DNA of 64,000 nucleotides from Streptomyces chrestomyceticus JCM 4735 (GTDB lineage Bacteria; Actinomycetota; Actinomycetes; Streptomycetales; Streptomycetaceae): NCBI RefSeq assembly GCF_003865135.1, contig NZ_BHZC01000001.1, positions 8,494,001 through 8,558,000 of the forward strand, written 5' to 3'. The translations under genes and the position numbers were made by a program. Below the pieces are notes generated by a model, which was given only the letters and a program-made list of their open reading frames with translations, searched no databases and had not been told where the DNA came from. Of this stretch, positions 57,771 to 61,463 are shown piece after piece. The stretch's first letter is position 1; the number at the start of each line of letters is the position of its first letter.

Positions 57771-58011
57771 GGTGGGTGTTCCGAACTCTCTCAGGGGTAC
57801 GGGAAACGGACGGACGCGTTCCCGGTCGGAGTCTCCGTCAGGCGTCCGCGTCCTCGCAACGTAACGCTCCGGCATCTCAAATACTGGGACCGGAGCCGGG
57901 ACGTGGCGGACCGCCCGCGCGAAAGAGCCGGACCCGCGCGAACCGGTGCGGCTGTGCCGCCGCGCCGGAATTCCCGTTCGTCCGCCGCGCCCGTCGGCTA
58001 CAGTGGAGGAC

Positions 58012-58038
58012 ATGGCTTCCTGGTACTACTACATCTGA
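58012..58038 (+). CDS. Leader peptide MASWYYYI for the ABC-F gene
   Basis: An 8-residue open frame (ATG 58012 to TGA 58036-58038) with GGAGG 2-6 nt upstream. It lies 240 nt before the ABC-F start. The W-Y-Y-Y-I run is the kind of peptide on which drug-bound ribosomes stall. It is followed by several alternative RNA pairings (next entry). Antibiotic-resistance ABC-F genes in Gram-positives are often controlled this way. Confidence 0.65.
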   Translation: MASWYYYI

Positions 58039-58284
58039 GACCGGGCGTGACCGCGGTCGGCTGATTCCTCGCCGCCCCGCCGTACGACCGGCAGCGCCGC
58101 CGTCCGCGCAGGAGCATCTGCCTGCGGACCGCCGCGCCGATTCCGCGGTCACCTCTTTCTGCAGCCGCAGCCAGCCGTATTCCGCATTCTGCTGCGCGCT
58201 GCCCTCCCGGCCTCCATCGGAATCCGGCCCCCGTGCGCAGGGCGCACGGCGCGGCCACGACGTACCCAGGGAATTCCCGTGCGC
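58039..58284 (+). promoter_or_regulatory. Attenuator/translation-control leader of the ABC-F gene
   Basis: Three pairings are visible. (1) GTGACCGCGG (58047-58056) pairs perfectly with CCGCGGTCAC (58143-58152). (2) Between them, GTCCGC (58102-58107) pairs with GCGGAC (58124-58129) with inner GCAG/CTGC. (3) GCGCACGG (58242-58249) can pair with CCGTGCGC at 58231-58238 or with the identical CCGTGCGC at 58277-58284, which contains the GTG start codon. The last two pairings exclude each other. This suggests leader translation controls access to the start. The mechanism is inferred. Confidence 0.55.
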
Positions 58285-59961
58285 CATCGCGCCCAATTGA
58301 CCATGAAAGACGTCTCCCGCGGCTACGGCGACCGCACCGTGCTGGAGCAGGTGTCGCTGACCGTGCGCCCCGGCGAGAAGGCCGGCGTCATCGGAGAGAA
58401 CGGCTCCGGCAAGTCCACGCTGCTCCGGCTGCTGGCCGGGGCCGAGGCGCCGGACACGGGCGAGATCACCGTGTCCTTCCCCGGCGGCACCGGCCACCTC
58501 GGCCAGACATGCGCACTCGACCCGTGCGGCACCGTCCAGGACGCCGTCGACGCGGCCCTCGCCGAACTCCGTGACCTGGAAGCCCGGATACGCGCAGCGG
58601 AAGCCGCGCTGGCCACCGCGACACCGCACGAACTCGACGCGTACGGCGAGCTGTTGACCACGTACGAGGAGCGCGGCGGCTACCAGGCGGACGCCCGCGT
58701 GGACGCCGCCCTGCACGGCCTCGGCCTGGGCCACCTCACCCGCGACCGGGTGCTCGGCTCGCTCTCCGGCGGCGAGCGGTCGCGCCTGTCGCTCGCCTGC
58801 GTACTGGCCGCCGCGCCCGAACTCCTCCTGCTCGACGAGCCCACCAACCACCTCGACCGGCAGGCCACCGCCTGGCTGGAGGCGCACCTCGCGGCGCACC
58901 GCGGCACGCTGCTCGTCGTCACTCACGACCGTGACCTGCTCGAAGCGGTCACCTCGGCCGTCCTTGAGGTCGACCGCGACCTGCGGACCGTCACGCGGTA
59001 CGGCGACGGCTGGCAGGGCTACCGGACGGCGAAGGCCGCGGCCCGCCGCCGCTGGGCGCAGGACCGCGAGGAGTGGCTGGCGGAGGTCGCCCGGACCGCC
59101 GACCTGGCGGAGTCGGCCGGCCGACGGCTGGCCGGGACCGGCAAGGACCCGCACCAGGGCTTCGGCAAGCACCGCCGCTCGCACGAGGCGAAACTGTCCG
59201 GCCAGGTCAGGGCGGCCCGGCAGCGGCTGGACCGGCTCCGGCGGCATCCCGTGCCGGAGCCTCCCGTACCGCTCCGGTTCACGGCCGAACTGGCCACGGC
59301 TGCCCCGACAGCGGCTGAGGCGGTGGACGGGCTCGGTACGCCTGCCACCACACGCGGCCCCCTCGCCCGACTGACCGGCATCACGGTCGGCGACCGGCTG
59401 CGCATCGCCGAGCTGACCGTGCAGCCGGGCGACCGCCTGCTCGTGACCGGCCCCAACGGCGCGGGCAAGACGACGCTGCTGCGCGTCCTGGCCGGTGACC
59501 TGCGCCCCGACACGGGCACCGTGCGCCGGCCGGCCCGTACCGGTTACCTGGCGCAGGAACTGTCCACGGCCGTACCTCCCAGGCAGTCCCTGCTGGCTGC
59601 CTTCGCAGCCGGTCTCCCCGGCCCGCCCGAGGAGCACGCGTCCGGACTGCTGGCCCTCGGTCTCTTCCGGGAGGAGGACCTGACGGTCCCGGTGGCGGCC
59701 CTGTCCGTCGGCCAGCGGCGCCGGCTGGAGCTGGCACGCCTGGTGACGCGCCCCGCCGACCTGCTCGTCCTGGACGAGCCGACCAACCATGTCTCCCTCG
59801 CCCTGGTCGAGGAGCTGGAGGAGGCGCTGTCCGCCTACCGCGGCGCGGTGGTCGTGGTCTCCCACGACCGGCGCTTCCGCAGCGGGTTCCGCGGGCGTGA
59901 GCTGGAGCTCGACGGAGGCCGGGCGGTGTGCGAGCGGGAGCGTCTCGCGGGGAGCCGCTGA
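58279..59961 (+). CDS. ABC-F family ATPase (antibiotic resistance/translation factor type)
   Basis: A 560-residue protein with two ATPase domains and no membrane helices. Domain 1: Walker A GVIGENGSGKSTLLRL, signature GSLSGGERSRLSLA, Walker B LLLLDEPTNHLD. Domain 2: VTGPNGAGKTTLLRV, AALSVGQRRRLELA (signature begins SVGQ, not SGGQ), DLLVLDEPTNHVS. A charged linker (AAARRRWAQDREEWLAEVAR ... HEAKLSGQVRAARQRLDRLR) joins them and would reach into the ribosome to displace drugs. It resembles actinomycete self-resistance proteins of the Lmr/Ole/Car group. GTG 58279 lies in a proposed RNA switch; ATG 58303 is an internal alternative. Confidence 0.92.
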   Translation: MRHRAQLTMKDVSRGYGDRTVLEQVSLTVRPGEKAGVIGENGSGKSTLLRLLAGAEAPDTGEITVSFPGGTGHLGQTCALDPCGTVQDAVDAALAELRDLEARIRAAEAALATATPHELDAYGELLTTYEERGGYQADARVDAALHGLGLGHLTRDRVLGSLSGGERSRLSLACVLAAAPELLLLDEPTNHLDRQATAWLEAHLAAHRGTLLVVTHDRDLLEAVTSAVLEVDRDLRTVTRYGDGWQGYRTAKAAARRRWAQDREEWLAEVARTADLAESAGRRLAGTGKDPHQGFGKHRRSHEAKLSGQVRAARQRLDRLRRHPVPEPPVPLRFTAELATAAPTAAEAVDGLGTPATTRGPLARLTGITVGDRLRIAELTVQPGDRLLVTGPNGAGKTTLLRVLAGDLRPDTGTVRRPARTGYLAQELSTAVPPRQSLLAAFAAGLPGPPEEHASGLLALGLFREEDLTVPVAALSVGQRRRLELARLVTRPADLLVLDEPTNHVSLALVEELEEALSAYRGAVVVVSHDRRFRSGFRGRELELDGGRAVCERERLAGSR

Positions 59962-60320: not shown

Positions 60321-61463
60321 ATGCACCTCTCGCTCCTTCAACCGATCATCGACCGGCCGGGCCCCTGGGCCTCCGTGTACGCCGAGGTGCCGCACAGCAC
60401 CGAGGACGCGGCCAAGCAGCGCGAGCTGTCGGCGGACGCGGCGGCCCGGCAGCTCGCGGAGCAAGGGGCGGACCGGGCCACGTGCGACGCCGTGCGCGAG
60501 GCCCTGGCCGGATTCCGCGCCGACGGCGACACCGCGGCCCCCGCCGGGCGGGCGGTCTTCGCCACGGACGGCGAGGTCGTCCTGGACACGCCGCTCGCCG
60601 GGCGCCCCGCCCAGCCGTTCGCGGACTGGTCACCGCTGCCCAGGATCACCCCGTGGGCCGAGGCCGCGGCGGACAACGCGGGCTGCCTCGTCGTGTACGT
60701 GGACCGCATGGGCGCCAACTTCGAGCTGCACGACGACCGGGGCGGCACGGAAGCCGGCCAGGTCGACGGCGTTGACTGGCCGATCCACCGCACCGCCACG
60801 GCGGACTGGTCCGAACGGCACTTCCAGACCGCGGTCGAGAACACCTGGGAACAGAACGCCGGCGAGATCGCCGAGGCCGCGCAGCGCGTCTTCGCCAGCA
60901 GCGGCGCCAAGGTCATGCTGCTGGCGGGCGACCCCCGCGAACGCCGCTCGGTCCACGAGAAGCTCCCCGAGCAACTGCGCTCGGTGACCTACGAGAGCGA
61001 CCACGGCGGCCGGGCCGCGGGTTCCGACAGCACCGCGCTGGCACGCGACATCGCCCACGTACGGGCCGCCCATGAACGCGACCACGTGGCCGACGTCCTC
61101 GACCGCTTCCGGGCGGGCGCCGGAGTGGGCGGCACGGACCCCGCGTACGCCGCGACCGGCGTACCGGCCCTCGTCGAGGCGGCCCGCGAACACCGCATCG
61201 ACACCCTGATCATCACCCCCGGCGGCGCCGACGCCGGCCGCGAGGTCTGGGTGGGCCCCGGCGCCGACCAACTGGCGATCCGCAACTCCGAACTGCAGTA
61301 CCTGGGCGAGACCAACCCGTCCGCGGCCCGCGCGGACGACGCCCTGCTCCGCTCGGCCGCCGCGAACGGTGCCGAGGCCGTGGTCGTCCGCGACCCCGCC
61401 GAAGCCCCGACGGGCGGCCTCGGCGCCATCCTCCGCTGGAGCACGCCGACCCAGCACGAGTAG
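60321..61463 (+). CDS. Rv2629/baeRF-family (Vms1-like, eRF1-fold) protein
   Basis: A 380-residue protein of the bacterial archaeo-eukaryotic release-factor family. The N-terminal domain starts MHLSLLQPIIDRPGPWASVY. The central domain contains CLVVYVDRMGANFELHDDRG and WSERHFQTAVENTWEQNAGE, then AKVMLLAGDPRERRSVHEKL. The C-terminal L7Ae-like part is REHRIDTLIITPGG through NGAEAVVVRDPAEAPTGGLG. Mycobacterial Rv2629 is the reference. Relatives (Vms1/ANKZF1) cleave peptidyl-tRNA on stalled ribosomes, but the bacterial role is not settled. Proximity to the ABC-F gene is suggestive of a shared ribosome-stress theme. ATG 60321 has a strong GGAGGAAG site. Confidence 0.85.
   Translation: MHLSLLQPIIDRPGPWASVYAEVPHSTEDAAKQRELSADAAARQLAEQGADRATCDAVREALAGFRADGDTAAPAGRAVFATDGEVVLDTPLAGRPAQPFADWSPLPRITPWAEAAADNAGCLVVYVDRMGANFELHDDRGGTEAGQVDGVDWPIHRTATADWSERHFQTAVENTWEQNAGEIAEAAQRVFASSGAKVMLLAGDPRERRSVHEKLPEQLRSVTYESDHGGRAAGSDSTALARDIAHVRAAHERDHVADVLDRFRAGAGVGGTDPAYAATGVPALVEAAREHRIDTLIITPGGADAGREVWVGPGADQLAIRNSELQYLGETNPSAARADDALLRSAAANGAEAVVVRDPAEAPTGGLGAILRWSTPTQHE

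Follow-up and report, generated by a model that had tools for sequence, protein, structure and literature searches.

The region from 58012 to 58278, upstream of an ABC-F gene in Streptomyces chrestomyceticus JCM 4735, is probably an inducible translation attenuator of that gene, in which a drug-stalled ribosome would act on a leaderless leader whose codons form an anti-Shine-Dalgarno (anti-SD) sequence. Positions are those of the window, the whole stretch of 64,000 nucleotides analysed here. The sequences give the conservation of the leader, the spacing of its promoter, a constraint on its codons, a predicted pairing and some compensatory changes. From the promoter spacing we infer that a WblC-type promoter would start transcription at the leader ATG or one base before it, yielding a leaderless mRNA. 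Without drug, the ribosome would complete the leader and depart; the leader codons are then predicted to fold back over the 86 to 267 nt that separate the leader start from the ABC-F start in the orthologs (267 nt in the window) and to pair with the ABC-F SD and start, so that the gene stays off. A drug at the peptidyl transferase centre or in the tunnel would halt the ribosome on the aromatic codons that close the leader, and the likeness of this leader to the streptococcal MsrDL makes an F-x-stop end the probable site. The stalled ribosome would cover the anti-SD and leave the ABC-F SD free, a step modelled here by in silico masking, and the protection protein would be made.

The ABC-F gene and its leader

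The genome carrying the window is a single contig of 9.38 Mb. The gene, its ribosome binding region and the leader are as follows.

58279..59961, + strand, ABC-F gene of the ribosomal-protection type, 560 aa, GTG start (NCBIfam profile scores)
58268..58273, + strand, AGGGAA, SD of the ABC-F gene (AGGGAA recurs in most listed orthologs)
58262..58280, + strand, GUACCCAGGGAAUUCCCGU, ABC-F SD and start region, predicted pairing target of the leader
58012..58038, + strand, probably leaderless leader ORF, MASWYYYI-stop (counterparts in 57 of the 58 listed orthologs)

The ABC-F protein scored 389.1 bits against NF000355 (ribosomal-protection ABC-F, NCBIfam), above the curated cut-off of 380. Its top-scoring family was NF000171 (TlrC/CarA/OleB/SrmB) with 697.2 bits; as the cut-off of that family is 800, the protein is not assigned to it. 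The upstream neighbour is a divergent, amino-acid-permease-like gene, the longest ORF of which starts at an ATG at 58011-58013 (- strand) that overlaps the leader ATG on the opposite strand; the true start probably lies further inside this ORF. Adjoining the ABC-F gene on its 3' side is a second ribosome-related gene (60321-61463), similar to the Rv2629 ribosome hibernation family but scoring 258.9 bits against a cut-off of 320.

Orthologs were collected by searching 199 genomes of the genus with the protein, which gave at least 58 ABC-F matches with an identity of at least 67%, and the upstream DNA was taken for all 58. In six-frame searches several orthologs (e.g., G103, G086, G190 and G196) have one stop, TGA or TAG, inside the ABC-F match, which is either a real stop or the result of an alignment running beyond the gene end. 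The preliminary description of this region had proposed the leader MASWYYYI (ATG GCT TCC TGG TAC TAC TAC ATC TGA, 58012-58038). This ORF is present, and the conserved leader ORF that characterises a ribosome-mediated translation attenuator was found in 57 of the 58 listed orthologs, as an aromatic equivalent of 7 to 10 residues. The sole ortholog without a leader (L046) has a match beginning at query residue 12 and containing one stop, with coding-like sequence upstream. Statistics were based on 56 of the 57 leaders, the remaining one (L010, where the contig ends early) being read by hand.

The 56 leaders have 7, 8 or 10 residues. Variants in the orthologs include MASWYYFV, MASWYYFL, MGSYYFFL, MGSYYFFR, MGAYYFFL, MGSHKHYFFL, MRSYYYFR, MFAHYYFL, MAFLFFV, MAFYYFR, MVFFFFL and MDFYRFP, among others. 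All 56 end in a TGA stop codon, and 55 have a penultimate F; the window itself has Y at this place. Two orthologs with leaders, MAFLFFV (L181) and MAFFYFL (L182), lie on Streptomyces plasmids, both large plasmid records typed as non-mobilizable. When a DNA pattern for such leaders was applied to 392 genomes, it matched 48 places in 47 of them, against five matches of a reversed control pattern. Thirty of these places were taken for inspection: 25 had an in-frame short ORF, followed in 22 by an ABC P-loop; two of the other three lacked a -10 box and one was at a contig edge. A scan of the whole window with Rfam 15 at the gathering score gave no matches.

Promoter and probable leaderless start

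The elements upstream of the leader are listed below.

57968..57973, + strand, GAATTC, WblC/WhiB7-like AT-rich element (one mismatch to GAAAWY; 3 bp 5' of the -35-like hexamer)
57977..57982, + strand, TTCGTC, weak -35-like hexamer, separated by 16 nt from the -10 box (WblC-model scan)
57999..58004, + strand, TACAGT, -10 box (TAnnnT), 7 nt 5' of the leader ATG (strict TAnnnT in orthologs)
58005..58009, + strand, GGAGG, earlier read as a Shine-Dalgarno, probably 5' of the transcription start and not conserved

A strict TAnnnT occurs 6-7 nt 5' of the leader start in 53 of the 56 listed orthologs (the exceptions being L025, L049 and L056), as compared with a background of 0.2% per position. In 53 aligned promoters, an A+T enrichment is seen about 28-32 nt 5' of the -10 box, reaching 72-77% at the three best columns over a background of 27.5%. 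Promoters of the WblC regulon are described as having a GAAAWY-like element, a weak -35 (TKGMNN) and a TANNNT -10, with transcription starting mostly 7-8 bp after the -10 (PMC7157823). The leader promoter has sequences resembling these elements. When the model was scanned as GAAAWY, 3 bp, TKGMNN, 16-19 bp and TANNNT, it fitted with at most 3 mismatches of 10 in 33 of the 56 listed orthologs and in 2.7% of background places; the window has 3 mismatches. Applied to the window, the WblC-type spacing gives the A of the leader ATG as the predicted start. That WblC binds here is a guess based on the promoter sequence. The resemblance of 57960-58004 and the orthologous promoters to the WblC/WhiB7 regulon suggests that there may be two layers of drug response. 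A strict sigma-70 scan of 57850-58350 found no promoter. In MAF/MTF-type orthologs (e.g., L024, L033, L042 and L044), an imperfect palindrome, GAGACGAGACGnnnCGTCTTG, recurs just 5' of the -10 box; it looks like a TetR-type repressor operator and was not seen in window-type promoters.

The "perfect Shine-Dalgarno" that had been assigned to the leader was not confirmed. The GGAGG stops 2 nt short of the ATG, which places it between the -10 box and the probable start of transcription. Within -15 to -5, GGAGG occurs in 0 and any SD-like 4-mer in one of the 56 listed orthologous leaders; the GGAGG of the window (-7 to -3) falls outside that range. With TAnnnT conserved 6-7 nt upstream and a Shine-Dalgarno not conserved, the leader is probably leaderless; in that case GGAGG would be absent from the mRNA.

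Predicted pairing of the leader with the ABC-F Shine-Dalgarno

Overlooked in the preliminary description was a predicted fold-back of the leader codons (58012-58026) on the SD and start of the ABC-F gene (58262-58280). The two leader segments involved are as follows.

58012..58015, + strand, AUGG, leader start, predicted to pair with CCGU at 58277-58280, part of the GTG start included
58017..58026, + strand, UUCCUGGUAC, anti-SD in leader codons 2-5, predicted to pair with 58269-58273 and 58262-58266

In the window, the predicted partners of UUCCUGGUAC are GUACC..GGGAA (58262-58266 and 58269-58273). In the predicted folds of many species, CUUUCUCUGA at the leader end pairs with UCAGGGAAAG, and ACCCAU, before and at the ABC-F start, is the partner of AUGGGU at the leader start; in most MAF-type leaders the start RUGRCUUUC is predicted to pair with GAAAGUCAY. 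The fold of 58012-58308 has a z score of -2.1, 5 of 200 shuffles being equally stable.

By whole-leader partition function, the probability that the SD is paired to the leader in the window is 0.73, and 0.16 when the leader is synonymously recoded. For the 56 listed orthologs the mean for the SD core is 0.74, against 0.48 after recoding; it exceeds 0.5 in 46 and is below 0.5 in 10, among them the MGSYYFFR type (L015, L019, L023 and L025). Paired to any partner, the SD core reaches a mean of 0.85 in the predicted uninduced fold, so that the sequestration expected of a translation attenuator in the uninduced state is predicted for most of these orthologs. The recoded mean is often above 0.5 (31 of 56) because F, Y and L codons are pyrimidine-rich, and recoded leaders out-pair the natural one in 8 of 56. 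Mean duplex energies in the 56 listed orthologs are -15.0 kcal/mol for the natural leader and SD, -12.4 for recoded, -12.4 for swapped and -9.2 for shuffled leaders; leaders from foreign species were equally good in 27% of swaps. With codon usage for the recoding drawn from just four window genes, fewer than 5% of recodings were as good as the natural leader in 30 of 56, fewer than half in 47 of 56 and about 1% in the window. Thermodynamic prediction across 86-267 nt of very GC-rich RNA is uncertain, and these values should be read accordingly.

Masking of the leader plus 12 nt in silico released the SD in part, raising its unpaired share from 0.15 to 0.44, and equal masks elsewhere left it at 0.15. 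The rise in free SD exceeded 0.2 in 39 of the 56 listed orthologs, against 1 of 56 for control masks. Nine leaders from genomes outside the 199, close relatives found by a pattern shaped on the first set and therefore not a fully independent check, gave a probability above 0.5 in 7 and above the recoded value in 8; the weak cases were L087 (0.00) and L089 (0.44).

Other ABC-F genes were also considered. Upstream regions were examined for six of at least 80 mostly distant ABC-F loci (L101-L104, L106 and L125), and a short ORF behind a -10-like box was found in two, L102 by scan and L125 (Catellatospora; MKL after a TTAGGCT box) by eye. Leaderless-type short leaders of such genes include MGSL or MGTL, MIF (L189) and MIRFYYFYI (L190), the loci with short leaders being L187, L192, L196, L063, L064, L069, L189, L190 and L125. 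For paralogous leaders, the SD pairing probability was 0.78 for L187 and 0.77 for L192 (shuffled, 0.12 and 0.56), 0.50 for L189, 0.30 for L196, 0.29 for L102 and about 0 for L063, L064, L069 and L190. With results this mixed, the wider claim that the same SD pairing occurs in paralogous ABC-F leaders was dropped.

Codon choice and compensatory changes

The codon choice of the leaders opposes the habit of the genome at the places that the pairing needs. Gly is encoded by GGT in 25 of 25 leader codons (15 of 157 in four window genes), Ala by GCT in 14 of 20 (8 of 275) and Phe by TTT in 21 of 126 (0 of 46), and T is the last base of codon 2 in 46 of the 56 listed orthologs. Compensatory changes were seen in L004 (CCUGUGA with UCACAGG), L018 (SD UCAGAGAAAG, with U-A in place of U-G), L022 (CCCCUGA with UCAGGGG), L057 (CCUCUGA with UCAGAGG) and L081 (UUCUCCUGA with UCAGGAGAA), the last from a genome not among the 199.

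Covariation was measured in 15 distinct sequences with leaders of at least 8 residues, the anchor of L004 being corrected by hand and MASW types, MAFLYFFV and R-ending leaders being left out. In this set both-sided changes were present in 3 of 10 pairs (1 of 500 shuffles as high), and covariation was 0.212 versus 0.142 in shuffles (0 of 500), while slides of 1-3 columns gave no more than 0.177; further pair types, 7 in number, were not more frequent than in shuffles (6.7). Ungapped covariation over all leader types was weaker, with 72% of cells paired (41 leaders of at least 8 residues; all 68), and double changes numbered 7 and 12 after a slide of +2, compared to 7 and 8 in register. This weakness results from R-ending leaders that bulge, from W and MAF types that use another register and from the misplaced L004 anchor. 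Taken together, the codon choice and the compensatory changes back the predicted leader:SD pairing, which would keep the gene off.

A constraint on codons beyond what the peptide demands would also be expected if control were purely at the RNA level, with the peptide irrelevant and aromatic only because anti-SD codons are pyrimidine-rich, and with the SD opened by any ribosome that is slow or stalled on the leader. We consider this rather unlikely. The best SD duplex involves the leader start in W-type leaders and in 12 of the 15 MAF/MTF-type ones, and yet the F/Y-x-stop end is kept. Retention of aromatic-x-stop where the 3' codons are not paired with the SD speaks against an irrelevant peptide and suggests that the peptide end is under selection, beside the RNA. 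The aromatic residues are thus doubly explained, by pyrimidine-rich anti-SD codons and by a conserved F-x-stop peptide end.

The peptide end and the likelier inducer

MsrDL (MYLIFM-stop) is the leader of streptococcal msrD; erythromycin hampers its release at the stop codon, where F5 clashes with the release factor (PMC10314930). The Streptomyces leaders resemble it in being short and hydrophobic, in preceding an ABC-F gene (in msrD, one for macrolide resistance) and in their end of a penultimate F, one residue and a stop, which is present in 55 of the 56 listed orthologs (Y in the window). They differ in several respects. For MsrDL, a ribosome binding site, action on a transcription terminator and a UAA stop that mattered are described (PMC10314930), whereas TGA is used in 56 of the 56 listed orthologs; the Streptomyces leader looks leaderless, and its codons are predicted to pair with the SD of the gene. 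In Actinomadura oligospora (L102), a leader MGSLIFL with a GTG start lies 129 nt 5' of the ABC-F match, with a -10 box 7 nt upstream; it has L-I-F in common with MsrDL.

Leaders that sense lincosamides, pleuromutilins or streptogramin A are mostly shorter (MRI, MIN, MK[L/Q], MAGN and MLV in the published accounts consulted), with MVGDDDISG of TiaA as an exception. Since a length of 7-10 residues leans to macrolides, a macrolide may be the likelier inducer by analogy.

Transcription attenuation and the earlier stem and octamers

If the ribosome stalled on the leader shifted a terminator into an antiterminator, the outcome would be transcription attenuation. There is precedent for this: it is the published mode of LmrC of Streptomyces (PMC8546547), it has been proposed for TiaA (SCO0636) and Are5sc (SCO6720), with an induced are5sc transcriptional reporter (PMC12421871), and it has been shown for MsrD (PMC10314930). 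Strong GC-rich hairpins also lie between our leader and the ABC-F gene. On the other hand, no terminator-like site was found in 57850-58350, in a scan that Streptomyces terminators without a T run would escape; the codon-constrained pairing aims at the SD itself; and the transcriptional reporter of TiaA was constitutive (PMC12421871). Transcription attenuation is, in our judgement, improbable at this locus. What the translation attenuator proposed here shares with LmrC, TiaA and Are5sc is a uORF and a structured 5' UTR before a Streptomyces antibiotic-resistance ABC-F gene, theirs being antibiotic-induced; it differs in the peptide (MVGDDDISG for tiaA and MLV for are5sc; PMC12421871), and transcriptional terminators have been proposed or mapped in those systems (PMC8546547, PMC12421871).

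The preliminary description had centred on a 10-bp stem and on an octamer able to pair with either of two identical copies, as listed here.

58047..58056, + strand, GTGACCGCGG, 5' arm of the 10-bp stem (in the predicted fold; not conserved)
58143..58152, + strand, 3' arm of the 10-bp stem (in the predicted fold; absent in L089)
58231..58249, + strand, CCGTGCGC-AGG-GCGCACGG hairpin 5' of the ABC-F RBS (whole or part only in four W-type species)

The two arms are exact reverse complements and do pair in the predicted fold; their conservation is another matter. Among the 56 listed ortholog regions, only L001-L003 have the 7-base core of the stem at the corresponding position, the stem is whole only in the window, and 7 contiguous bp remain in L002 and L003. 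A close relative outside the 56, L089 (leader MASWYYFV), is without the CGGTCAC arm. Of 500 dinucleotide shuffles of the region, 8.2% contain an inverted 10-mer; inverted 8-mer pairs number 9, with an average of 2.0 in shuffles, 0.4% of which reach that count. The octamers, too, were read correctly, with GCGCACGG occurring once (58242) and CCGTGCGC at 58231 and 58277 within 58012-58310, and are confined to four W-type species: an octamer complementary to the start region was found upstream in 3 of the 56 listed orthologs (L001-L003) and in L089. As the start-codon copy is invariant in W-type species, covariation is uninformative on the octamer pairing.

A switch in which GCGCACGG pairs with the upstream or the start-codon CCGTGCGC, governed by the 58047-58056/58143-58152 stem, is therefore very doubtful, given the loss of the stem in L089 and an octamer set present in just 3 of the 56 listed ortholog regions without covariation. 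This holds even though the sequences are present, inverted 8-mers exceed shuffles, stem and hairpin are both in the predicted fold, and the match between GCGCACGG and the start copy is exact in all four W-type species; the CCGTGCGC/GCGCACGG set may matter in this small group. The broader idea that a ribosome on the leader frees the ABC-F start agrees with the conserved leader (57 of the 58 listed) and with a predicted leader:SD pairing that recoding weakens. It is the parts proposed for it that fail, the leader SD being not conserved, the stem lost in L089 and the CCGTGCGC copies limited to W types. The structure that counts is predicted to be the fold-back of the leader on the ABC-F SD and start, and neither the 10-bp stem nor the CCGTGCGC repeat.

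An amino-acid attenuator for Trp, Tyr or Phe starvation, to which the abundance of Y, F and W codons in the leaders might point, was rejected as hardly credible, because the aromatic position varies (W, Y, F, H or L), with only the penultimate F near-invariant, and because the downstream gene encodes a ribosome-protection-type ATPase that is neither biosynthetic nor for transport.

Discussion

The translation attenuator proposed here is of a known general kind, and its form is new: a probably leaderless leader, predicted anti-SD codons and a conserved F-x-stop end. In the translation attenuation of cat-86 and erm genes, a ribosome stalled on the leader exposes the SD of the resistance gene, and in cat-86 the arm pairing with the RBS contains leader codons. 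The ABC-F leader is like cat-86 in this last respect, by prediction; it is unlike cat-86 and erm in its probable leaderless start, in the 86-267 nt between the starts of leader and gene, and in its peptide and gene family.

Mycobacteria have leaderless cysteine-rich uORFs proposed as attenuators for cysteine or redox (PMC4633059), and these, too, are short leaderless uORFs proposed as attenuators in an actinobacterium. As described in the accessible text of that paper, they come without a drug-resistance gene and without an anti-SD. The literature drawn on also included PMC10201436 and PMC10219788. A search of open-licence literature gave no match to the leader peptide strings, and among the matches listed, judged by titles and the beginnings of abstracts, none described a system of this form.

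A more specific reading is that this is an undescribed Streptomyces drug sensor, in which a leaderless mini-gene combines a macrolide-arrested F-x-stop peptide, convergent with MsrDL, with long-range anti-SD codons. We put this forward tentatively, with somewhat less than even confidence. If it is true, the 5' end of the mRNA would zip shut a resistance gene that lies 86-267 nt away, and would do so until the leader is occupied by a stalled ribosome. The proposed attenuator itself would give a common group of Streptomyces ABC-F genes (at least 58 orthologs in 199 genomes) a defined regulatory logic. It would also predict the drug-sensing peptide end and link leaderless translation to the control of resistance, and the natural leader variants would be a series of possible arrest peptides to set against MsrDL.
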